A stretch of DNA of 64,000 nt from Bacteroidota bacterium (GTDB lineage: Bacteria; Bacteroidota; Bacteroidia; Chitinophagales; Saprospiraceae). The DNA is taken from NCBI GenBank assembly GCA_029781865.1, contig JAKOVW010000090.1, positions 96,355 through 160,354 on the forward strand, in the 5' to 3' direction. Position 1 is the stretch's first letter; every line of letters starts with the position of its first letter. Positions 47,263 through 62,783 of the stretch are shown here, piece by piece. A model generated the notes under the pieces. It had not been told where the DNA came from. It did not search any database and saw nothing but the letters and a program-made list of their open reading frames with translations. Position numbers and translations under genes: made by a program.

Positions 47263-47308
47263 TGGTGGAGGATCAGGGATTCGAACCCAGGACCCCCTGC
47301 GTGCAAGG
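47263..47308 (-). repeat. tRNA-Ala(TGC) 3' fragment including CCA (att-type direct repeat, copy 1)
   Basis: Reverse complement CCTTGCACGCAGGGGGTCCTGGGTTCGAATCCCTGATCCTCCACCA; no 5' half to the right. Shares 44 bp with 55753-55796. Confidence 0.88.
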
Positions 47309-47410
47309 AAGTTTCTCTTGATTTTTCTAGGGTTTTAGATACACTATATCAGTAGGTTACATATTTGACATTTTGTAATAAGTCAATGATTTAACCATTA
47401 ATCTGAACCC

Positions 47411-48595
47411 ATGCAATTAGTCAAGATCAAACTCTTCAAATCGAAGAAACACAAGAACGGGAAGTACCCGATTGTCCTACAGGTAAATCGGGCGGGATAC
47501 AAACGTATTTTCCTACCATTGGAAGCTATAGAGAAAAATTTCGATGATTCCATTGGCCGTTACCGCAAAAACGAAGACAACCACAATCAGAAAAATCTAA
47601 TACTTCAAAAGTATGAAGCAATGGCCGGAAGGTTAATGGATGATTACCTATTGTCCGGCAAGCATTTTGATTTCGAGGATTTCAAACAAAAATTTACCAC
47701 AGGTAAAAAGACCGTCGGTGTTTACGAGATGTTTGAAACGATCATTAAGGAAAACAATGCAAAAGAGAAATTGAAAACAGGAGAGGCGTATCGGGATGCC
47801 ATGCGTTCCTTGAAGAAATATAGACCTGGTAAACTTAATTTCACTGATATTGACTACAAGTTTCTCAAAGGTTATGAAAAACACTTGTTCGAAAGAGGAG
47901 TGGGTGGTGGAGGTGCAAATCTTTACATCCGTACTCTTAGAGCTTGTTACAATGAAGCAATCAAAAGAGGATTTGTACAAGTGGAGAATTATCCGTTCAA
48001 ATCACAAGCCAAACCAAATGGATATTCATTTTCACATCTGAAATCAACGAGGAAAGTAAGAGCGATCAATGTAGAAGATCTTCAAAAATTAAAGGAGTAC
48101 CCACCATGTTTAGAATTAGATCTATGGTTGTTCTCCTATTATTGCGGAGGCATTAATTTATGGGATATGACCTTGCTCAAATCCGCCAATATTTACAATG
48201 ACTTATTACAGTACACTAGATCTAAAACTGGTGACAAGTTCACAATAAAACTCAGAGAAGAAGCAAAAGAGAACCTGATAAAATATCAAGGTGGTGAGTA
48301 TCTATTTCCAATACTGTTTGATTATCACGAAACAATGCGGCAGAAAAAAGATAGGCTAAAAAGGATGGCCAAGCAAATAAACAAGACGCTCAGATCAATT
48401 GCAAAAAAGCTGAATATCGATGTCCGATTTACCTTTTATACGGCCAGACATACTATGGCAAGTATTCTTCTTGATCGTGGAGTTGATCCGGTTACTATTC
48501 AGTCGGTACTTGGGCATACTAACTTAAAAACTACTCAAGGGTATCTTGAAAGTCTTAAAAAGAATGCGGTGGATGATGCAATTTCCGTTTTATAA
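47411..48595 (+). CDS. Tyrosine recombinase/site-specific integrase (element 1)
   Basis: TARHTMASILLDRGVDPVTIQSVLGHTNLKTTQGYLESL; N-terminal SAM-like segment. Confidence 0.95.
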   Translation: MQLVKIKLFKSKKHKNGKYPIVLQVNRAGYKRIFLPLEAIEKNFDDSIGRYRKNEDNHNQKNLILQKYEAMAGRLMDDYLLSGKHFDFEDFKQKFTTGKKTVGVYEMFETIIKENNAKEKLKTGEAYRDAMRSLKKYRPGKLNFTDIDYKFLKGYEKHLFERGVGGGGANLYIRTLRACYNEAIKRGFVQVENYPFKSQAKPNGYSFSHLKSTRKVRAINVEDLQKLKEYPPCLELDLWLFSYYCGGINLWDMTLLKSANIYNDLLQYTRSKTGDKFTIKLREEAKENLIKYQGGEYLFPILFDYHETMRQKKDRLKRMAKQINKTLRSIAKKLNIDVRFTFYTARHTMASILLDRGVDPVTIQSVLGHTNLKTTQGYLESLKKNAVDDAISVL

Positions 48596-48679
48596 AGCCA
48601 TAATGTAGAGACCGTTTTCTTGCACGCAGGTTACTAAATTAAGTATTTCCCGCAATGCTTTACCGTAATTCCCGCGACC

Positions 48680-48701
48680 GCATACGTAAATTTGCGTATG
48701 C
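48680..48701. repeat. Near-perfect 22-nt palindrome downstream of int1
   Basis: GCATACGTAAATTTGCGTATGC. Confidence 0.6.
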
Positions 48702-48731
48702 TGCCTGCGTATTTTGCTCAATCAGATGGCA

Positions 48732-48822
48732 TGAATTGTAACTTGTTACAATTTTATATTGCTATAAATAGTAATTAAGTATGCGATAAATACTATTTCT
48801 TTTGCAACAAATACCATTTTTT
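48732..48822 (+). repeat. Imperfect intergenic repeat, copy A
   Basis: Carries TTGTAACTTGTTACAA, CTATAAATAG and TTGCAACAAATACCATTTTTT; matches copy B at 49212-49302. Confidence 0.75.
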
Positions 48823-49211
48823 ACAATAATTTCATTGTTCTAGTAAACTTCTCTCTGATTTTGTTATAAATTTGAATTAGACGTTAAATCCTTAGACTAT
48901 GAACAGGACAAATAAACCAGAAGTTATTATTCTTGAACCATTCTACAAGCAGCACGTTCACTCTTGTGTCAATCACACTATTCTGGAGCCATCCGATTTC
49001 ATTAATCAAATCAAAAGAAGTACTCACGGCATTCACACTTACCATTCTTCTTGTAATCATCCCGGCGTCCCTTGCGGCACTAAGTATCATCGTGGTAGTG
49101 GACATGGATATTGTTATTATTGCAAACTGTGTAATTGATTACTATAAGTAAATCCCGCAATACCGTTGGGTAATTTCTGCAAGGCACTAGGTATTACATG
49201 AACACAAAACA

Positions 49212-49302
49212 AGAATTGTAACATCTTACAAAATTTTATTACTATAAATAGAAATTATGTAATAGTATTTAGACTATTTCGATTGCAACAAATACCATTT
49301 TT
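49212..49302 (+). repeat. Imperfect intergenic repeat, copy B
   Basis: Carries TTGTAACATCTTACAA, CTATAAATAG and TTGCAACAAATACCATTTTTT. Confidence 0.75.
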
Positions 49303-49806
49303 TTGATTTTTGTACAAAATCAGGGTTTTCCCTGATATTTTTCGAAACGACTTGTAATACCTTCGCTTTAGTTCTAATCCCATGACTTCACTTCACTGGT
49401 CATGTAATTCTCGTCACAAGAATTTATTGTCCGACAGAATATATTCGGTTCTGCAAGCTGGAAATTAATTTGTTTCGTAATTGATTTTCTTGATTTGATT
49501 ATTTAACTTTTTATCCACTTAGTATGAATACAAGCGATTCTACTCCACCAAGCAACTAAGGGCTGATTTATTTACTCATGCCGATTACTTCTCTCAAGAA
49601 CTGTTAACTCTTCCCCGCAAGAATTAAACCGATTGCTCAGAGAAACCCTTCTGATAGATCTAAATTGAGCACTTCTTCAACTAGGTCAGCCTCATTGCCC
49701 TAAGCATCCTCCTTAATGAAATAAGAATATATCTGTGCGCTCACAGATGTAATGAAGCTGATTTTGGATTTTTGGTTTCTTATTATTTATTTCAAATTCT
49801 TTACTT

Positions 49807-52800
49807 ATGAAAAATCTATTTATTAAATACGTTTCGTCTCTTCTTTTATTTACGCTCATTTTTTCTAAAGATTTGTCGGCTCAAACTGGATGCGGTTTTT
49901 TAGCACCAGCAGAGGCAGAACCCATTTTTGAAAATTATACAAGTACTGATATTACAGTCTATTTAGCATTTCACATTATACGACGATCGAATCAAACAGG
50001 AGGAGCATCAAGTAGTGATCTAGGAAATTATATGACTGAATTGTATGATGTTTACCATACTTCAGGTATTTTTTTTGATACATTGTGCACAAATTTCATT
50101 GATAGCACTGCTCTTTACGATGATTGTGACAGCAAACTTAGAGCAAACTGGGCTAGTTTTCAATCAAGATTTGAATCGCCAAATGCTGTAAATGTATTTA
50201 TACATCCAGGTAGTTGCAGTGATGAATTTGGGAATGGAAATATTAACGGATATAGCTGCTGGATACAAAATAATGGCCATAGAAATTTGATTTCTCATGA
50301 AATTGGTCATGTTTTAAATCTTTTACACACATTCGAAAATTCGTATGGAATGTCTTGCTATAGCGATCCATCATCCTTAATTTATAAAGGAGACCTGTGT
50401 GAAGACACACCTCCTGATACCGGAATTCTATTTTTGTTTTTTAAAGATTGTAATTGGAGTGACTCCTTATGTGGATTAGATTCAAGATGTAATGATGGAT
50501 GTGGAAATTCACCTCATCTCGGTTTTGACCCAGGAATAATGATGTCTGATTATCATTCTTGTACTTCATTCTTTACTACTGATCAGCAGAATAGAATGAA
50601 GGATAAAATCCTAAACAATCGTTCAGGCTCATATTTTAATTTGCCTGTTGCCGATCTCATTTTAGATGACTCATTTGTAATTTCCACACCGTATCGTGCA
50701 GCAGCCAATATTATTATACAAAGTGGAGGCGTCTTAATTGTTACTTCTACTTTGTACATGCCAGAAAAAGCTAAAATAACAATTCAAGCTGGAGGCATAC
50801 TAAGTGTTAATGGAGGCACAATCACGAAAGGAAATTTTAAAGACATGTGCCATGAAAGAACAGGTGATCCCCGGTTTTGGCATGGTATAGAAATGCAATT
50901 CTCTAATTCATCTCCACCAAGATTTGCATGTGTAAACGGCACAATTGAGTACTCTGAAAACGGATTACATGGTCCAGATGGAAAACCCGCAGGAAATGGA
51001 TTGATAAGTATTTATAACAGTACTTTCAAAAACAATAAAGTGAGTATTTTCATAGAGAGACCGCCGTCTTTTTCATCACCCATATCAGTTAAAAGAACAA
51101 GGTTCTATCTTGATAATTCATTTCCTTTGAGTCAGTATTACACTCAAGTTCACATCGATCATTCAAAAATCTATTTTGACAGTTGTACTTTCGATAATCC
51201 GAATTATAAGAAACCTTTGACTGAATCTGCTTATGCTATAAGATCTATGAGTGCCGATGTGAGTGTTCAACATACAACTTTTAAGGATAGCATTTATGGC
51301 ATTCAGAGCATGAATTTTATGTCAAAGGCTACGCTTGGCGTTTCAATTTGTCGATTTTTGACAACACGAATAGGAATTAACATTTTCAACCACAATAGTT
51401 ATTCCATCACAAAAGACACATTTGATTCCTCAGTTAAATTTGGGCTTTTAAGTAATGAATGTTCTGGCTATATCATAAATAATAATTATTTTAGAAGAGG
51501 CGGAGGTGGTGCAGTTACTGATTCAGCAGGAATCCAGATGAATAGTTCTGGTTTAGGTGAAAACGTAATAGAAAAAAATGTGTATACTGCGGTTAAACAT
51601 GGTCACGTAACTAATGGTATAAATGGTGATGTTGTTAGAATGGTGGGTCTGAAATTTTATTGCAATGATTTTTCTAGTATGTCTGGTAACGATGAAAACG
51701 TTTTCAATGGTCAAGTAAACGGAATACAAGGATTAAGTGATATTGGTGCAGGGAACACCGCAGGCGATGATCAGGTTGATCATGCACTTAATTTTACTTT
51801 TGGAGCACCAAAAGATGTTATGGTGTATTATTATAAAAGTGGTATCAGCTCACATACACCGGATTCTGATCCTAAATACAGAATGACTAAAACTCCTGTT
51901 AGTTCTTATAATTGCAGCAGATCATACAAAAAGCCGGATACCGTTTCGCATTTAGTTACATATCAAAAATATGTTGACAGTTCAGATCTCCGCAAAACCC
52001 AACGTACAGATTCAATTGATGGAGGTAATACCACCACTTTGCTAACTTATATTGGCGCAGCCAATTCAGGAAATGCTACAACTTTGTATAATCACCTCAT
52101 AAATAAATCGCCTTGGTTAAGTGAAGCCGTTGTATTGGCAGCCTACAATCGATCAGATATTTTTGACTCAACAAAGCGAGCCCAAATAATTTTTAATAAT
52201 CCAGATGCAATGAGGTCAGGAGCTTTAAGAGCAGATATAAGAGATGCGGATTCACCTTTGCCGACTTCATCCTTAGATGCATTAGATACCTTAACATTGT
52301 ATACTACGTCTAGGACAGCATTTGAAGCTGAAATAACGGAGTTAGATTTGTTTAAAAGTATGGTTTGTTATGATATTTTAAATCAATTAAAATTAGATAC
52401 GGTAGATCAATCTGATAGTATTCTAGTTTGGCTCGAAAGGGTCGGTGATTATCTTTCAAAAAGAGAGATTATGGAAACTCATTTTGAAAACGGTGATTTT
52501 ACGGACGCCAGTTCTGCTTTATCAGATTTGGAAGAAATGGAAAACTTAAGTGAAGATGAAATTTCTGATATTGAAGGATTACCTGATTTGTTAGATTACA
52601 TTGCTACAGTTAGGGATGATAAACGATATGAAGGTAATTTATCACCCGAAGAAATTGAGTGGATGATTGATTATGCGGAGAATAACGATAATCAGAGTGG
52701 TCGCGAGGTCAGATCTGCGTTATTGTTTTATTATGATATTAATGTTGATGAACCTGAAGCCCTCCGGCAATCAAAATATCGCAAACCAAATCCTGAAGGA

Positions 52801-53085
52801 GTACAAGTAAAGGTTATAGATTCGAAAGCAATTAGCAAGAAGGATTTTATCATTTATCCAAATCCTTCGAAAGACGAATTGATAATAAGTGTACCCACTG
52901 AAGACAAAGGAGACAGATGGAATGTGAAAATCATAGATCTTGATGGAAAAATATTAAAAGAGGCCGGCAGTAATAATTCTGCTTTCAAAGTTGGAATAAA
53001 TCAAATTCCTACAGGAATTTTTATTGTCCAATTATCGAATTTAAAGGGTAACCGTTTTACAAAAAGAATACAGGTAATTAAATAG
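49807..53085 (+). CDS. M43-like zinc metalloprotease with beta-helix-like region and T9SS domain
   Basis: HEIGHVLNLLHTFEN with downstream MMSDYHSC; beta-helix-like middle; C-terminal IYPNPSKDELIISV...GIFIVQLSNLKGNRFTKRIQVIK. Confidence 0.82.
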   Translation: MKNLFIKYVSSLLLFTLIFSKDLSAQTGCGFLAPAEAEPIFENYTSTDITVYLAFHIIRRSNQTGGASSSDLGNYMTELYDVYHTSGIFFDTLCTNFIDSTALYDDCDSKLRANWASFQSRFESPNAVNVFIHPGSCSDEFGNGNINGYSCWIQNNGHRNLISHEIGHVLNLLHTFENSYGMSCYSDPSSLIYKGDLCEDTPPDTGILFLFFKDCNWSDSLCGLDSRCNDGCGNSPHLGFDPGIMMSDYHSCTSFFTTDQQNRMKDKILNNRSGSYFNLPVADLILDDSFVISTPYRAAANIIIQSGGVLIVTSTLYMPEKAKITIQAGGILSVNGGTITKGNFKDMCHERTGDPRFWHGIEMQFSNSSPPRFACVNGTIEYSENGLHGPDGKPAGNGLISIYNSTFKNNKVSIFIERPPSFSSPISVKRTRFYLDNSFPLSQYYTQVHIDHSKIYFDSCTFDNPNYKKPLTESAYAIRSMSADVSVQHTTFKDSIYGIQSMNFMSKATLGVSICRFLTTRIGINIFNHNSYSITKDTFDSSVKFGLLSNECSGYIINNNYFRRGGGGAVTDSAGIQMNSSGLGENVIEKNVYTAVKHGHVTNGINGDVVRMVGLKFYCNDFSSMSGNDENVFNGQVNGIQGLSDIGAGNTAGDDQVDHALNFTFGAPKDVMVYYYKSGISSHTPDSDPKYRMTKTPVSSYNCSRSYKKPDTVSHLVTYQKYVDSSDLRKTQRTDSIDGGNTTTLLTYIGAANSGNATTLYNHLINKSPWLSEAVVLAAYNRSDIFDSTKRAQIIFNNPDAMRSGALRADIRDADSPLPTSSLDALDTLTLYTTSRTAFEAEITELDLFKSMVCYDILNQLKLDTVDQSDSILVWLERVGDYLSKREIMETHFENGDFTDASSALSDLEEMENLSEDEISDIEGLPDLLDYIATVRDDKRYEGNLSPEEIEWMIDYAENNDNQSGREVRSALLFYYDINVDEPEALRQSKYRKPNPEGVQVKVIDSKAISKKDFIIYPNPSKDELIISVPTEDKGDRWNVKIIDLDGKILKEAGSNNSAFKVGINQIPTGIFIVQLSNLKGNRFTKRIQVIK

Positions 53086-53095
53086 GATTCACTTT

Positions 53096-53143
53096 AAATC
53101 GGGATATTTATAAGAGTTTCTTATATTTATCCCGATTTATTTT
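53096..53143 (+). terminator. Rho-independent terminator
   Basis: AAATCGGGATA...TATCCCGATTT, with a nested ATAAGA/CTTAT stem, then ATTTTTG. Confidence 0.78.
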
Positions 53144-54765
53144 TGTGTCAAATGAAATCATTAACACTCGCTATCTTAACTCTTGTAAGCTACGAACTGC
53201 TTTCTCAGCCTTACTTTAGTAGAGTTTATACTGTACCGGAAGATGGCACAGGTCTATTGAATGTTTGGCCAAATTATCTTCGAGCTGTATTTCCAACGGA
53301 TAGCCTTATTTATTCTTTTGGTTATTCGGCAGACACGACATATAAACAAGTCGATGGAACTGGCTTTTTCGTTTTCAACACTGAAGGAACTCTTTTAGAG
53401 TATTATCACATTAAGGATTCAGATGAATACAATTTCTTTTATCCCGAAGGAATTCACACGTGGGACGGAATAACATTTTATACTTCTTTCAATAACTTTT
53501 ATAAAGAGGAATCTATTTTAAAATTTAACAGATTTACGAAGCAACAAGAAGTGCTAAAAATTAGCAACTCTGTAATTCTAAATGGAGACATACTGAGAGG
53601 AAATATGGTTGTATCTCCGGACGGATGTCTTTTCACAGCTAGCGATATTGCAATAGATTCCTTGGGTTATAATTATAAAATACAAGTTACCAAAATTGAT
53701 ACTCAAGGAAAAATAAAATGGCAAACCATCATTGGTAAAGAACCAATTAATGTATTTATTAACACTTGCTATTCATCTTTTGCTGATAATATCGGAAATG
53801 TTTACGTCGGAGTAAATTGCTTTGATTACATGCCTGGAACTAGAACAAGTTTTCAAAGTTCTCTTTACAAACTAGACTCAAATGGAGTTATTAAGAATAA
53901 CTATAACTCTAAATTGGCTTATGAAGGATTCCATCATATATATGATATTACTCAAGATGCAAAAGGTTGGCTCTATCTATCGTCAAATTACAATTTCAAT
54001 GGCCAAACGTTTCCATTTGGCATTTATGGCTATGGTGTTATACAAATTTTAGACTCTAATTTGAACTTCAAGGGATTCGTAAATTTAAATTACGATACAA
54101 TTATTACCGCTCCTGAAATTAAATCTTATGAGAAAGTTATAAAAGCCAATGGAAATGATGGAATATTAGCTGGAGGATTGGAAATTAGAAAAGATTTTGT
54201 TGTCAATTATATTGATTCATTAAATCGTTTCGATACTTCGGAAATTGAACATTATGTGTTGACTCTTTTAAAAATAAACAAGGATAAAAATATTGAATGG
54301 AAAAGACATTATAGAATAAGAAATGGATACGATAATGGTTGGCTTTGGGATATAAAATCTTTTCAAGGAAAGGGTTATGTTATTGGCGCTCAATCTTTCG
54401 AAGGCCTGGCGTATGAGAAATTTAAAGAACCATATTATATGCCCTGGCTCCTCCGAGTCGACGACGACGGTTGCTTAATTCCAGGATGCGGAACTGTCAG
54501 TACGAAAGACCAAAAATCAAAAGACAAAGCACAAATTCTTGTCTATCCCAATCCAGCTTCCAATTACATAGTAATCCTTCATCCAGGCTCAGATAAAACG
54601 CATTACCAGGTCGTTTCCGCTGACGGTAAACTTATGGACGAGTTTTATTCTTTAATCGAGGGTGAGCAAATAATTGTTCCGGTGAATAGCTTTAGGTGTG
54701 GAAGATATTTTGTTAAGGCTGAAAGTAAAAGTGGCATTAGTTCGCAATCATTTATTAAGCAATAG
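53143..54765 (+). CDS. Secreted hypothetical protein with T9SS domain
   Basis: N-terminal signal-like segment; C-terminal VYPNPASNYIVIL...GRYFVKAESKSGISSQSFIKQ. Confidence 0.75.
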   Translation: MCQMKSLTLAILTLVSYELLSQPYFSRVYTVPEDGTGLLNVWPNYLRAVFPTDSLIYSFGYSADTTYKQVDGTGFFVFNTEGTLLEYYHIKDSDEYNFFYPEGIHTWDGITFYTSFNNFYKEESILKFNRFTKQQEVLKISNSVILNGDILRGNMVVSPDGCLFTASDIAIDSLGYNYKIQVTKIDTQGKIKWQTIIGKEPINVFINTCYSSFADNIGNVYVGVNCFDYMPGTRTSFQSSLYKLDSNGVIKNNYNSKLAYEGFHHIYDITQDAKGWLYLSSNYNFNGQTFPFGIYGYGVIQILDSNLNFKGFVNLNYDTIITAPEIKSYEKVIKANGNDGILAGGLEIRKDFVVNYIDSLNRFDTSEIEHYVLTLLKINKDKNIEWKRHYRIRNGYDNGWLWDIKSFQGKGYVIGAQSFEGLAYEKFKEPYYMPWLLRVDDDGCLIPGCGTVSTKDQKSKDKAQILVYPNPASNYIVILHPGSDKTHYQVVSADGKLMDEFYSLIEGEQIIVPVNSFRCGRYFVKAESKSGISSQSFIKQ

Positions 54766-54771
54766 AGGGAA

Positions 54772-55458
54772 TCATTCTTTTCCCATTGCAACATCCAATT
54801 GAAATTTTACAAAATCATACTCAATGTGTTCAAGTAGCTCATAGCAATATTTTATTGCCTCATCGAACATATGTTTAAGAAGATCAGTTTTGAAAATTTC
54901 CTTTATTATTTGTGTAGAATCCCCTGATTTCATAACCGCTTTATCCATTATTTTTAATTTCTCACGACTAAAATGATCTAAGGCTTCTTGAAAATATTTA
55001 ATTTCTTCAGGTCTTTCATAGCTCCATTTATCATTAAACATTAATTGAAGATCATTGCTATGAACCATTCCGTTTCTTAATTTACAAATCATTTCAATAG
55101 TTTTCCATAGGTCTTGATTTATCACCGTCGAGAGATCTAACCCATTATCGTTACAATATTGTTTGATTCGTTTCCAATCCGCTGATATAACTTTTTCGCT
55201 ACACTTTACAGCTATTCTCTTCTCATCAAGTGATTTGCCCTCAACCAGAGCTAAGTCAGATAGATATTTCCATACAACCTCCTTTGTAAATCCTTCAATC
55301 AGAATCCAGACTTGAACGATAAAATTTACCCGTTCAGCTAAATCAACTTCATTTGATGGATAATCTTCAATCGTTGATAATTTGTTTGCGCAAAATAGAA
55401 TAGCAGTTTTCCAAAACTTAAGTGCAAATCCTTTCGACCTTGATACAATTTGTAACAT
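54772..55458 (-). CDS. Hypothetical helical protein, possible HEPN domain
   Basis: KLRNGMVHSND fits HEPN Rx4-6H (R-NGMV-H); remainder predominantly helical. Confidence 0.5.
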   Translation of the reverse strand: MLQIVSRSKGFALKFWKTAILFCANKLSTIEDYPSNEVDLAERVNFIVQVWILIEGFTKEVVWKYLSDLALVEGKSLDEKRIAVKCSEKVISADWKRIKQYCNDNGLDLSTVINQDLWKTIEMICKLRNGMVHSNDLQLMFNDKWSYERPEEIKYFQEALDHFSREKLKIMDKAVMKSGDSTQIIKEIFKTDLLKHMFDEAIKYCYELLEHIEYDFVKFQLDVAMGKE

Positions 55459-55710
55459 AAAAGTGTTTTTGCATGTAAAAATATCATGGTTTATGCCCCC
55501 ACGATTTAATTATTTCCCAGACAATCTTTGCTAACACGACAAAATACCCAAATACTTTAATTCTTTGGTTTCTTTTGTCACCTTAGGAGTTTCAACTCAA
55601 AAAATTTGATTAGGAATAAGACAAAATACATTTCTCTCAAAAACACAGATGAGGAGCTTGTGAGGCCTTCAATAAGATATAAAAAATTTATCCATTGTTT
55701 GCAAATAAAA

Positions 55711-55742
55711 AAGCAGCTACAAAATATTCATTGTAACTGCTT
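55711..55742 (-). terminator. Hairpin adjoining tRNA-Ala fragment copy 2
   Basis: AAGCAGCTACAA...TTGTAACTGCTT, 12-bp stem with one mismatch; A-rich left flank gives a minus-strand U tract. Confidence 0.55.
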
Positions 55743-55752
55743 GATTATCAAT

Positions 55753-55800
55753 GTGGAGGATCAGGGATTCGAACCCAGGACCCCCTGCGTGCAAGGCAGG
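55753..55800 (-). repeat. tRNA-Ala(TGC) 3' fragment with full anticodon arm (att-type direct repeat, copy 2)
   Basis: Reverse complement CCTGCCTTGCACGCAGGGGGTCCTGGGTTCGAATCCCTGATCCTCCAC; no encoded CCA and no 5' half. Confidence 0.88.
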
Positions 55801-55985: not shown

Positions 55986-57251
55986 ATGAAAAAACCTACG
56001 TTTGATCTCGTACTATCTAAAAACAGACCGCATCTTAATGGTACATATCCATTATCATTAAGAGTTACCTATGAGCGAATTCCAAATTTAATTGGCCTCG
56101 GAATATCCTTAAAGGAAGATGAATTTAATAAAATTTGGAAATCGAAAACACCACGAAATGAATCTTTAACGAAAAAGATTAAACTTCAAAAAGAATTTAT
56201 ACAAAAAAGTTATGATATAATTGATCAAATGGAGAGGGAAGGAGTTGAATTATTTGATTTTAAGGAATTTAAGGCCAGGTTCAATGGCAAGAAATTAAAT
56301 ATTGATTCTAACTTGCTATGTATGTATGATAGAGTTATAACGGAGTATGCTTCAAATGATCAAATTAGCACATCTGAAAATTATAGAAACAGTAAGGCAG
56401 CTCTTGTTAAGTTTATAAACCCTAAAAACGGAGAAATTAAATTCAATTCTTTAAAAACAAAAGATCTGAGAGATATTGAGAATTATATGATTGTTGAGCG
56501 TAAATTAAGTCCAACAACATTATCTATGTATCTCAGGTGCTTAAAAACTGTTTATAATAAAGCTATTAGTGGAGGAATTATATCACATGACATTAGTCCT
56601 TTTAATTCTAAAATAGATCATTATGTCATTCCAATGGTCAGAAATGTAAAAAAGGCTTTAGGAACAGACGAAATTAATCGGTTGGCAGACTATTATGATT
56701 TTGAGAATAGTCCTCGGTGTAGGGCACGCGATTTTTGGATGCTATCATTTTATTGTTATGGTATGAATATTTGCGATATACTTCAATTGAAAAATAATAA
56801 TTTAGATGGAAATGTATTGCATTTCTATCGACAGAAAACGATGAATTCTCATCGGGGCAATCAAAAACCGGTTCAAATGTCACTAAAGCCTAATGCAATG
56901 GAGATTATTGACAAATACAGAAATCCGGACCAATCACCAGATAAGTATCTCTTTGATGAATTAGATCATAAGGATTCCGCAATTATAAAGCGTAAAAAAA
57001 TTAAAAAATTCACCAGATTCATTAACCAGCATATTAAAAAAATTGCAATAATAATAGGAATAGACCCAAAAGTGTCCACTTATTATGCAAGACATAGTTT
57101 TGCCACTATAGCCAGAAACAATGGAACGGAGGTAGAAAAAATATCACTCCTAATGGCCCATTCAAATATTTCTACTACTCAAAAATATTTGGATTCATTA
57201 AATTTAGAACAGTCTCGTGCAATATCAGATAATATTTATCGGGATTTTTAA
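55986..57251 (+). CDS. Tyrosine recombinase/site-specific integrase (element 2)
   Basis: YYARHSFATIARNNGTEVEKISLLMAHSNISTTQKYLDSL. Confidence 0.95.
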   Translation: MKKPTFDLVLSKNRPHLNGTYPLSLRVTYERIPNLIGLGISLKEDEFNKIWKSKTPRNESLTKKIKLQKEFIQKSYDIIDQMEREGVELFDFKEFKARFNGKKLNIDSNLLCMYDRVITEYASNDQISTSENYRNSKAALVKFINPKNGEIKFNSLKTKDLRDIENYMIVERKLSPTTLSMYLRCLKTVYNKAISGGIISHDISPFNSKIDHYVIPMVRNVKKALGTDEINRLADYYDFENSPRCRARDFWMLSFYCYGMNICDILQLKNNNLDGNVLHFYRQKTMNSHRGNQKPVQMSLKPNAMEIIDKYRNPDQSPDKYLFDELDHKDSAIIKRKKIKKFTRFINQHIKKIAIIIGIDPKVSTYYARHSFATIARNNGTEVEKISLLMAHSNISTTQKYLDSLNLEQSRAISDNIYRDF

Positions 57252-57489: not shown

Positions 57490-57675
57490 ATGAGTGCTCT
57501 TCCCAAACTGTACACATTAAAAGAAGTTGCTGAGTATTTGCATTGCTCGGACACCACGCTTTACCGCTATGTTAAGGCACAGCAAATAACTTATTTGCGC
57601 AGAGGCCGATTATTATTGTTTAAAGAAGATGATATTAAGGAGTTTATGAACAAATCTACCATTAAGTCATCATAA
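57490..57675 (+). CDS. Small HTH/excisionase-like protein
   Basis: YTLKEVAEYLHCSDTTLYRYVKAQQITYLRRGRLLLFKEDDIKEFM. Confidence 0.85.
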   Translation: MSALPKLYTLKEVAEYLHCSDTTLYRYVKAQQITYLRRGRLLLFKEDDIKEFMNKSTIKSS

Positions 57676-58264: not shown

Positions 58265-58579
58265 ATGCTCATTCCCAAGTACATCTATAAATGGGAGCAA
58301 ATAATGCATATCAAAGTTTCAGAATTCGGCATCAAGAAAATGAAAACTAAGTGGGGGACTTGCAATATAGAAGCCAAGAGAATATGGCTTAACTTGGAAC
58401 TTGCCAAAAAACCAATCCAATGTCTGGAATTTATTATAGTCCATGAGATGGTTCATTTATTGGAGCGCAAGCATAATGATCGGTTCATAGCCTATATGAA
58501 TAAATATTTGCCTAAATGGCGCAGCTATAAAGAAGAACTCAATAGCATCCCTGTCGGTCATGCTGAATGGGAATATTGA
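58265..58579 (+). CDS. YgjP-like M48 metallopeptidase domain, N-terminally truncated
   Basis: IKKMKTKWGTCNIEAKRIWLNLELAKKPIQCLEFIIVHEMVHLLERKHNDRFIAYMNKYLPKWR; only 104 aa. Confidence 0.82.
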   Translation: MLIPKYIYKWEQIMHIKVSEFGIKKMKTKWGTCNIEAKRIWLNLELAKKPIQCLEFIIVHEMVHLLERKHNDRFIAYMNKYLPKWRSYKEELNSIPVGHAEWEY

Positions 58580-60165
58580 TTCTTATCATTTTCCTTATCA
58601 CATCCGTCATATATTTCTTCACTCAATTGATAATGCACCAATTCTGCGTTCAATATTTTCTCCATTTCTTCTCTTACACGGTCTTTTTCTGAAAGAGGGC
58701 ATAAAATACTATCATGCTTAGAAAGTACGTGAAAACCTTCTTTAATTAACTTTGGGAGGATTTTATCTATGTATATTTCACTTTCCTTATGCATTAACGA
58801 AATTGCAAAAGCTGGTGATCCTTTTGATCTCTTATATGAATCAATTAGGTTAATAAGATTCGGAAAAATCTCTTTCATTTTAACTTTGGACTTTGGATTG
58901 TATCTATAGCTTGAATAGAAAATCAAAAATGCTACTGCTTTGGCAGAATCCCGAGAATCCAATTCTAAAATATCTTTAATCTCATCATAAAACTTTCCTT
59001 CACAAGCTAAATCAATAAATTCAACCAAATCCTGTGTTAATACCCTAAATTCCCTATTTACTAAATCATTATAGTTGAATTGTCTTGTAATCCCTTTATT
59101 TGTTTTAATTCCTTGAATTGTACTTGTAAATTTATTCAGAATCACATTTCTTTCTATAAAAGTAGTAATGCTTTTCTTAATTGGTATTAGCTTTCCAGGA
59201 ATCTTCGTATCAAAAATATAGTCATCAAAATATCCATTCTTAATCATTCGTGCCAAAATTGTAGAATGAGAATTTTTCAAATCTATTGAACAAATTTCTT
59301 CCCCGTTAAACTTTAAAGCTGGCAACAGTTCCTTTGGAAATGAAGTAATATTTGTATGAAGTCTCTTATCTGTCTGTCCCTTTTTTATAAAAAACTCTTT
59401 ATTTATCAAACTTGTAATACTATTATTATATGACAATGAAAGCAACATCTTCTTCTGAGTTATATAATCTGTAATATTAGTCAATCTAAAAGTATTTTTA
59501 TCCTTAATCAAATCAATATCCCTTTCACTTTCTTTTAAAACAGACAATATCATTTTGACAGGATAAAATATATTCTTTTCATTAGGATCACTATTTGGTT
59601 CTAAATCATTCACATTTACTATCTGGCTATCATCAATTTCATTATTAATTTCAATATATTTTCTAAATCTTTCATTTTCAATATAATCTTTAATTAATCT
59701 GTCAGCTGATTGCTTATCAACAGTTATTAATTCTAAACTTTTTAAAGTCTCCTTCTTTAATTTCCCACCAACATTTTCTTTTCTATTTTTTATTATTTGT
59801 TCCTTTAAATAAGTCAATTCTACCAAATTACCCCAATCAGTCATCAAATTTGGATTAATTCTATAAGTTTTACAATATTTAAACCCATTAAAATTAGAAT
59901 AACTATTATTTCTTTGAATAATATTTCTATCAATTAAATCATTCATATAGCGATTATAATTCTCTAAAAATGCTTTCTTCCAGTATGTACTAGGAATAGG
60001 TATATAATCATGAAAAGTTAAGTTTTTTCTTTTTATTAACTTTATAATAATATGAACCAAATGAAATTTCTTATTATTCTTAGATTTTCTAGTCTTTAAA
60101 CTCATAATTTGATCTACCAATACCTTTGGTAAATTAAAATGTATTCTATTGTTTTTCATTTTCAT
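58558..60165 (-). CDS. Putative divergent PolA/single-subunit-polymerase-like palm protein
   Basis: Candidate motif A ICSIDLKNSHSTILARM, motif B RDSAKAVAFLIFYSSY and motif C FHVLSKHDSILCP in the expected order. Confidence 0.5.
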   Translation of the reverse strand: MKMKNNRIHFNLPKVLVDQIMSLKTRKSKNNKKFHLVHIIIKLIKRKNLTFHDYIPIPSTYWKKAFLENYNRYMNDLIDRNIIQRNNSYSNFNGFKYCKTYRINPNLMTDWGNLVELTYLKEQIIKNRKENVGGKLKKETLKSLELITVDKQSADRLIKDYIENERFRKYIEINNEIDDSQIVNVNDLEPNSDPNEKNIFYPVKMILSVLKESERDIDLIKDKNTFRLTNITDYITQKKMLLSLSYNNSITSLINKEFFIKKGQTDKRLHTNITSFPKELLPALKFNGEEICSIDLKNSHSTILARMIKNGYFDDYIFDTKIPGKLIPIKKSITTFIERNVILNKFTSTIQGIKTNKGITRQFNYNDLVNREFRVLTQDLVEFIDLACEGKFYDEIKDILELDSRDSAKAVAFLIFYSSYRYNPKSKVKMKEIFPNLINLIDSYKRSKGSPAFAISLMHKESEIYIDKILPKLIKEGFHVLSKHDSILCPLSEKDRVREEMEKILNAELVHYQLSEEIYDGCDKENDKNQYSHSA

Positions 60166-60411: not shown

Positions 60412-60603
60412 TCATATTGATTGCTGCCGCGCGGTTATATGAAAACGTTCAAGAAATTCTTTTACATCTTTCTCAGGAAACAGCAATGTCCTCACTCTCC
60501 TTATATAACCTATTCTATCTTCACTTACATATCTATATACTGTAGATCTTGAGCAACTAAGAATTTCACATAACTGTGGGTCTGTGTATAATTTATTCTC
60601 CAT
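60412..60603 (-). CDS. Small HTH/excisionase-like protein (second in element 2)
   Basis: YTDPQLCEILSCSRSTVYRYVSEDRIGYIRRVRTLLFPEKDVKEFLERF. Confidence 0.82.
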   Translation of the reverse strand: MENKLYTDPQLCEILSCSRSTVYRYVSEDRIGYIRRVRTLLFPEKDVKEFLERFHITARQQSI

Positions 60604-61247: not shown

Positions 61248-62783
61248 ATGAATATATTAAAAAACAACGAGATTTCAAGAACTGAGCCCAATACTTCAGT
61301 TACCCTCAGGGATTATCAAAAAACAGCATTAGCTCAAATTTTGAAGAAATGGGAAGATGGAAAGAGAAAACTTTTATTACAAATGCCTACAGGAACTGGA
61401 AAAACGGTTGTGTTTGCGGAAATTGCACGTATGAAAAGTGTAAATGGAGGTAATATTCTTATTATAGAGCATAAACGGGAATTAGTTGAACAAGCAGTTA
61501 GCAAATTGACAGATAATAGTATATCGGCTGGAATTATTATGGCTGGTGAATTAGAAGATGATAGTAAGAAAGTACAAATAGCGACTATTCAAACTCTCAA
61601 AAATCGTATAAAACCTAAAGCCGATTTAATAATTATTGATGAAGCACATCATGTTGCAGCGAAAACTTATAGAAAACTTTGGAATTTCTATCCAGAAGCA
61701 AAATTCTTGGGTGTTACCGCTACTCCAATTCGGCTAAACGGAGAAGGATTTGATGATCTTTTTGACGAACTAATAGTGAGTGATTCTATACGAAAATTCA
61801 TTGATAATAAATATTTGGTTTCGATAGATCATTTTGTATGTTCCACGCCGGACTTATCAGATCTTAAACTAATTAATGGTGATTATGAAAAGTCAAATCT
61901 TTCCAGGAAAATGATGAAAGACAATACTCTTAATGAACTTATCTCTACATACAAAAGTAATTACCTTAGTAAATCCGCTATAGTATTTGCTGTTGATATA
62001 GAGCATAGCAAGAAAATTGTTGAGTATTATACAGATGCCGGAATAAATGCTGTACATATTGATTTTACAACGCCTATTGAAAAACGAAAGAAAATTTTAG
62101 ACGACTTCAGAAACAAAAAAATTAAAGTCATTAGTAATGTTGAAATAATTACGGAAGGCTTTGACTTTCCTGCTTGTGAAGTAGTGCAGTTAGCAAGGCC
62201 TACGAAATCATTGTCATTGTATCTTCAAATGGTTGGTAGAGTTATGAGGCCAGCAGCCGGTAAAAGCAAGGGAATCATATTAGATCATGCCAATCTCTGG
62301 TTGGAGCATGGAAGCTCCATAAATCATAGAAATTGGAATTTAAAAGGACAAAAAAATGACATAAATAAGAAAACAGATCCAGAAGTCTGCGCTTTTCGGA
62401 AGGATGGTTCACTCAAAAAAGTAAATCGGGAAGACTTGAGAGAAATAAACGGCTTAAAAATCGTACCATTATGTGAAGAGCACAAGAGGCTATTCATTTT
62501 TGAAGACAAATTAACCTATTCAAATAAAAAAAACTTTAAAATTATAAATGCATATTTACTTTATAAAGAATATTTAAAAAGTAGAAATGTAATCCTTACT
62601 GATTATGAATTTAATTACATTCAGAATCGATTAAATGTTTTAAATAAACAAGTAGCAAAAGATAGGCAATTCAGCGAAGGGTTTTGGTATTATGAGGAAA
62701 GGAAATTGCAGTCGCAATCTTTAAGAAAAGATGACACTATAATAAATCGTTCCTCTAATAGGCAAATGCAATATTCACGTTGA
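61248..62783 (+). CDS. SF2 DEAD/DEAH-box helicase (RadD/SSL2-like)
   Basis: LRDYQKTALAQIL, MPTGTGKTVVFAEIA, IIDEAHH, GVTATPIRLNGEGF, QMVGRVMRP. Confidence 0.92.
   Translation: MNILKNNEISRTEPNTSVTLRDYQKTALAQILKKWEDGKRKLLLQMPTGTGKTVVFAEIARMKSVNGGNILIIEHKRELVEQAVSKLTDNSISAGIIMAGELEDDSKKVQIATIQTLKNRIKPKADLIIIDEAHHVAAKTYRKLWNFYPEAKFLGVTATPIRLNGEGFDDLFDELIVSDSIRKFIDNKYLVSIDHFVCSTPDLSDLKLINGDYEKSNLSRKMMKDNTLNELISTYKSNYLSKSAIVFAVDIEHSKKIVEYYTDAGINAVHIDFTTPIEKRKKILDDFRNKKIKVISNVEIITEGFDFPACEVVQLARPTKSLSLYLQMVGRVMRPAAGKSKGIILDHANLWLEHGSSINHRNWNLKGQKNDINKKTDPEVCAFRKDGSLKKVNREDLREINGLKIVPLCEEHKRLFIFEDKLTYSNKKNFKIINAYLLYKEYLKSRNVILTDYEFNYIQNRLNVLNKQVAKDRQFSEGFWYYEERKLQSQSLRKDDTIINRSSNRQMQYSR

Follow-up and report, generated by a model that had tools for sequence, protein, structure and literature searches.

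A-family polymerases encoded by mobile elements were named TV-Pol in 2008 by Iyer, Abhiman and Aravind, who predicted from gene context that they are primase-polymerases and listed members from Bacteroidetes (PMC2579912). In 2020 an A-family primase, CcPol-MP, was described, whose polymerase, CcPol, comes from a staphylococcal cassette; CcPol makes primers de novo when it is bound to its partner MP, a reaction for which two aspartates are needed, and on its own only extends primers (PMC7581432). CcPol-related PolA-SSB pairs occur in elements of Bacillota, and all the examples of 2023 come from that phylum (PMC10061031).

The protein considered here is encoded in a window of 64,000 nucleotides (the whole stretch of DNA analysed) from a Bacteroidota bacterium and belongs to a family here called F1. 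A sequence-only reading had proposed a divergent polymerase-like protein at positions 58558-60165. The open reading frame is real, running on the minus strand from ATG to stop over 535 amino acids, and motifs A (D295), B (R405, K409) and C (H484-D485) lie where they had been placed and exceed chance, as judged by their conservation in sets of 7 and 47 sequences. The gene and its sub-features are the following.

58558..60165, minus strand: polymerase gene of family F1, 535 aa (open frame from ATG to stop; homologues; A-family fold in models)
59857..59991, minus strand: predicted winged helix formed by residues 59-103 (order helix-helix-strand-strand, in both AlphaFold2 models)
59362..59364, minus strand: R268, the arginine in the beta-hairpin that precedes motif A (invariant in alignments; hairpin E260-262/E269-271 in the model)
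59245..59295, minus strand: motif A, residues 291-307, with the putative catalytic D295 (conservation, profile alignment)
58906..58953, minus strand: motif B / O-helix, residues 405-420, with R405, K409, F413 and Y417 (PolA register; helix H405-417 in the model)
58747..58785, minus strand: Q-helix equivalent, residues 461-473, with the invariant E461 (two alignments of relatives)
58696..58734, minus strand: motif C, residues 478-490, with H484-D485-S486 (strand-turn-strand E481-483/E486-490 in the model)

The beta-hairpin of R268 and the winged-helix-like segment at the N-terminus were absent from the earlier reading; from the models we infer that the latter segment (residues 59-103) may bind DNA. 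Database searches with the window protein gave no match in NCBIfam or PADLOC, nothing meaningful among PDB sequences and only a sub-threshold match in Pfam (E=0.08), the sole trace being PHROG 4756, annotated as "unknown function" (E=1.3e-4). Judging by these searches, F1 is covered by no Pfam or NCBIfam model. The Pfam search also found no exonuclease domain, in agreement with the earlier reading, which had moreover placed the protein in a poorly described branch: this holds as far as Pfam and NCBIfam models are concerned, but the concept itself is known from TV-Pol in 2008 (PMC2579912) and from the CcPol primase in 2020 (PMC7581432). The proposal of a template-independent synthesising enzyme was rejected, since nothing supports it. 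At 58265-58579 of the window there is an ORF for a YgjP-like metallopeptidase, which matches only the C-terminal half of that family and is probably a remnant.

Relatives of the window protein occur in integrating elements of Bacteroidota, on one Planctomycetota contig and, as found by tblastn, on one Hymenobacter plasmid and in uncultured phages of 595-735 kb. A search with the single protein hit 8 of 198 related genomes, one of them that of the window itself, and a seven-protein profile matched 19 of 398 genomes of the phylum (about 5%), a count that is not purely F1, since the profile also picks up some members of a second clade, F2. A single-protein scan of a wider collection of genome contigs found nothing; a DNA pattern (R-L-x-T-x-L-T, 20 residues, D-x-x-N-S-Q) run over 264 billion bases succeeded instead, yielding 66 loci, with a family member by the F1 profile in 62. 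These loci are from Bacteroidota nearly throughout and from Planctomycetota once. A named Saprospiraceae locus encodes the identical protein to that of G040, a related genome assigned to the window's own family, which points to Saprospiraceae as the family of the window. One relative (L022, 1243-3432) is an F1 polymerase with a C-terminal fusion resembling GIY-YIG/NUMOD1 homing endonucleases, another (L006, 58-1887) has an in-frame stop inside motif A, due to decay or to a sequencing error, and a contig of 1.85 kb from the same genome as the window (L104, G000:C88) codes for the N-terminal portion of another F1 protein.

In the first set of 7 proteins the window protein shares only 21-26% identity with the six relatives, and the invariant residues include R268, D295, N298, K409, E461, H484 and D485. 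The second set comprises 47 full-length pattern-derived relatives; since the pattern itself required R268, T271, T274, D295, N298 and Q300, these residues are not independent evidence there. The pattern covered only R268 to T274 and D295 to Q300, and because it omitted motifs B and C, the columns of these two motifs provide an independent test of conservation. Here K409 is kept in 47 of 47, residue 405 is R or K in 47 of 47, residue 417 is F or Y in 46 of 47, and E461, H484 and D485 are each found in 46 of the 46 sequences in which the column is present, the remaining one having a gap. The conservation check suggested for D295, R405/K409 and H484/D485 thus turned out positive, with R405 present as R or K, and the Q/E-rich helix proposed between motifs B and C is borne out by L457, Q458 and E461, which hold among the relatives. 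A catalytically dead polymerase fold, kept as a DNA-binding replication or regulatory protein, could be imagined from H300 of the window copy, where the relatives have Q, and from the stop codon of L006; it is highly improbable, as the window copy retains every catalytic residue and F1 as a whole conserves them.

When the F1 profile is aligned with a PolA profile built from genomes of the window's phylum, D295 corresponds to D705, N298 to Q708, residue 300 to E710, R405 to R754, K409 to K758, F413 to F762, Y417 to Y766 and H484-D485 to H881-D882, in the E. coli numbering of PolA. The counterpart of R268 in PolA is ambiguous, the alignment having taken the arginine of GRVHT and not that of GRLSS. 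F1 scored 27.1 against PolA, where 60 column shuffles gave 14.1 +/- 1.8, and 42.4 against the profile of T7-type RNA polymerases (RNAPs), where 60 shuffles gave 14.6 +/- 2.2; the real score was reached in 0 of 60 shuffles in both cases. Because the profiles are shallow, the raw hhalign probabilities of F1 against PolA and T7 RNAP amount to only 4-34%, and shuffles were used in their place because PolA and T7-type RNAP, a known pair, themselves score only 15.8 in the identical set-up.

AlphaFold2 models were built for the window protein (46 sequences; pLDDT 75.3, pTM 0.62, with residues 381-520 near or above 90) and for the relative L170 (pLDDT 92.2, pTM 0.88). In Foldseek searches against the PDB, the top 50 matches listed for each model were solely family A DNA polymerases, the best being 2ktq for the window protein (2e-5) and 7sxq for L170 (1.4e-6), with a probability of 0.99-1.00 for the best family A matches; the structural check that had been proposed thus came out largely in favour of the polymerase assignment. 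Full-length TM-scores of the two models against the PDB reach only 0.21-0.39. Low values are to be expected when a core is compared with bigger multi-domain enzymes captured in a different state, and the overall geometry should be read with caution. Both models contain helices followed by a beta-hairpin with the conserved arginine before motif A. In the model of the window protein, D295 stands at the end of strand 291-296 and D485 in the turn that joins strand 481-483 to strand 486-490, a predicted placement that is the palm arrangement. Conserved catalytic aspartates in motifs A and C, an O-helix of the form R-x3-K-x3-F/T-x3-Y and the match to a right-hand fold, all features of superfamily A, support the assignment of the window protein to a catalytic core of the PolA / T7-RNAP type, as far as sequence and models can tell.

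With a profile nearer to T7-type RNAPs (42.4) than to PolA (27.1) and with a motif C reading HDS, as in T7 RNAP, F1 might be taken for a single-subunit RNA polymerase that transcribes the genes of the element. This is quite unlikely, since the T7 N-terminal domain is missing from F1, the protein has 535 aa compared with 883 aa in T7 RNAP, and the fold matches in the PDB are DNA polymerases, with no RNAP among the 50 listed. F1 gave no match to Pfam RNA_pol, and PF00940 was not found in the window's genome, nor in any of 14 control genomes.

The F1 polymerase of the window is encoded by an element integrated at tRNA-Ala: as the earlier reading had suggested, the gene is surrounded by signs of a mobile element, namely an integrase, HTH_17 proteins and a tRNA-Ala attachment site. 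The features around it are listed here.

55753..55796, gene sense on the minus strand: left attachment site, the 3' part of tRNA-Ala(TGC) (95% tRNA match)
55986..57251, plus strand: tyrosine integrase (PF00589, PF13102, PF17293)
57490..57675, plus strand: second HTH_17 protein, downstream of the integrase (PF12728, E=2.9e-14)
60412..60603, minus strand: small AlpA-like DNA-binding protein of the HTH_17 type, encoded upstream of the polymerase in the same orientation (PF12728, E=3.8e-12)
61248..62783, plus strand: SF2 helicase (ResIII/Helicase_C), a neighbour gene and candidate member of the element (domain matches)

The 44 bp of the attachment site match at 95% the intact tRNA-Ala(TGC) gene carried by another contig, C51, and lie about 190 bp from the start of the integrase. 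A second 44-bp copy, at 47265-47308, stands in front of another integrase (47411-48595); since the two copies each precede an integrase, two elements are arranged in tandem. The second tRNA-Ala-bounded stretch (47265-55752) carries this tyrosine integrase and large ORFs (49807-54765), which look like secreted proteins carried as cargo. The right end of the element with the polymerase was not found within the window, with which the contig also ends.

Two layouts recur in the F1 loci. In the first a tyrosine integrase is followed by the AlpA-like HTH_17 protein and then by the polymerase; in the second the integrase lies about 2.7 kb downstream of the polymerase on the opposite strand. BLAST clustering of the genes of the examined loci placed an integrase-containing cluster in 15 and an HTH_17 cluster in 8. 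Among the pattern-derived stretches, each of at most 8 kb, 37 of 62 contain an integrase, and of the 43 loci with enough sequence, 20 have an HTH_17 gene in the same orientation no more than 1.2 kb upstream. Of 51 integrase-bearing loci, 19 have the integrase at most 500 bp away from a complete tRNA gene (the rough chance share being 0.11), and in these it always starts beside the tRNA. Integrases predominate among 120 neighbour proteins of F1 genes, and no D5 helicase appears among the 25 commonest families shown for these proteins. In some relatives (L090, L091, L103) genes for an AAA_24 ATPase and a DUF3871 protein recur together near the F1 gene, in others (L015, L018, L094) an ORF of about 270-320 aa with no Pfam match lies between integrase and HTH_17, and small ORFs adjoin some members. 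In a phage of 595 kb (L086, 3800-6246) the end of the F1 gene and the beginning of a short DNA_pol_A gene (PF00476, E=1.2e-19) overlap, a side-by-side arrangement that would fit priming for a separate polymerase, seen in this one case.

The recurrent position beside integrase and HTH_17 would be accounted for by priming, which speaks against a primer-dependent A-family DNA polymerase limited to extension, for instance to fill gaps when the element is excised, enters by conjugation or is repaired. Such an enzyme would agree with motif B, where F at K+4 and an aromatic residue at K+8 follow the pattern of DNA polymerase I, and with the behaviour of CcPol without MP, which merely extends primers (PMC7581432). 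At the position of the PolA sugar-gate Glu (motif A D+5), however, Gln is found in 47 of 47 relatives, for which the pattern selected, and His (H300, by profile alignment) in the window protein. On balance, a role restricted to extension seems unlikely.

By analogy, the F1 protein is probably a minimal family-A-type polymerase that acts as the primase-polymerase of its element. This reading draws on the catalytic residues conserved in independently sampled relatives; on Foldseek matches, profile scores above those of shuffles and motifs in PolA register, which point to a polymerase core; on the integrase - HTH_17 - polymerase layout, with the integrase beside a tRNA in 19 of 51 loci; and on the F1 gene located directly before a DNA_pol_A gene in one phage. 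The priming step itself is suggested by analogy with CcPol, whose de novo priming needs the same two aspartates (PMC7581432) and takes place only with MP. Against a primase-polymerase it counts that no OB-fold partner gene was identified, that no D5 helicase is among the 25 commonest neighbour families shown, and that the TM-scores are low.

In the mechanism proposed, the winged helix or the HTH_17 partner would bring the F1 enzyme to an origin site on the element after excision, the A-type core would start a short strand on melted DNA and then extend it, and host polymerases would complete the copy of the element. F1 would thus occupy the role that in other satellites falls to AEP or DnaG primases. 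It need not be the initiator, because the F1-bearing Hymenobacter plasmid has its own annotated replication initiator, which also weakens F1 as a candidate for sole initiator. A bolder version is that a single F1 polypeptide combines origin binding (by the winged helix) with priming and extension, that the clade replicates tRNA-targeted elements of Bacteroidota, and that its Gln/His sugar gate allows ribonucleotides to begin the strand or to be used in it; this is conceivable, and we put it forward as a tentative and rather doubtful idea.

To our knowledge, only one A-family primase lineage, CcPol-MP, has been tested. F1 is a separate and widespread lineage, present in about 5% of the sampled genomes of the phylum and in huge phages, and offers a way to study primer-free initiation by an A-type polymerase and the basis of its choice between ribo- and deoxynucleotides. 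It also bears on how a large class of integrative elements of Bacteroidota replicates.

Compared with known systems, F1 shares motifs A, B and C and the predicted fold with DNA polymerase I and T7 RNA polymerase. It differs from DNA polymerase I in having Gln or His in place of the sugar-gate Glu, 76 residues between motifs B and C in place of about 124 in PolA, no exonuclease and no match to Pfam DNA_pol_A. On sequence grounds F2, which corresponds to PHROG 4756, is the sister clade and clearly homologous: the F1-F2 profile comparison gives 97-98%, and the two form separate clades with full support (100/100) in the tree. Both have the same motif order ending in HDS, but F2 has a motif A of the form D-[FY]-x-x-x-H, its RxxxK is preceded by a DPY that never varies, and Asn stands at K+8. 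F2 is found in plasmids and many phages (members L034, L036-L038, L083, L084), and tblastn with one member gave 177 phage records, named "hypothetical protein" in all rows listed. PHROG 4756, so far of "unknown function", thereby gains a function prediction as a polymerase-related sister clade.

The CcPol-MP / PolA-SSB primases resemble F1 in being A-family cores of mobile elements with site-specific recombinases. CcPol-MP has been shown experimentally to be a primase, whereas F1 is known here from sequence and models. Furthermore, CcPol stands near DNA polymerase I, whose Glu and Phe selectivity residues it retains, and its operon includes an OB-fold partner together with a replicative helicase, neither of which was identified for F1.

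TV-Pol and F1 are both stand-alone minimal A-type cores of mobile elements and viruses, with an arginine hairpin, two palm Asp, RxxxK, no nuclease and integrase or resolvase neighbours; the two-helix thumb and the beta-hairpin with a conserved Arg before motif A, typical of TV-Pol, are also seen in the F1 models. TV-Pol has a conserved fingers Asp before RxxxK, whereas F1 has none between D295 and R405 and shows G390 and Y393 instead; the N-terminus is an all-helical domain in TV-Pol and a predicted winged helix in F1; and linkage to a D5-like helicase, present in part of the TV-Pol family, was not seen for F1 among the 25 commonest neighbour families. Neither the F1 nor the F2 models match L183, a protein chosen by its motifs as the likely TV-Pol of the Microcystis phage Ma-LMM01. 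Since the conserved fingers Asp is lacking and these models do not match L183, F1 is described, on its sequence, as TV-Pol-like and is not filed as TV-Pol. The F1 clade appears to be undescribed as such in the literature found, and the Bacteroidetes sequences of the 2008 TV-Pol paper (PMC2579912) may belong to it.
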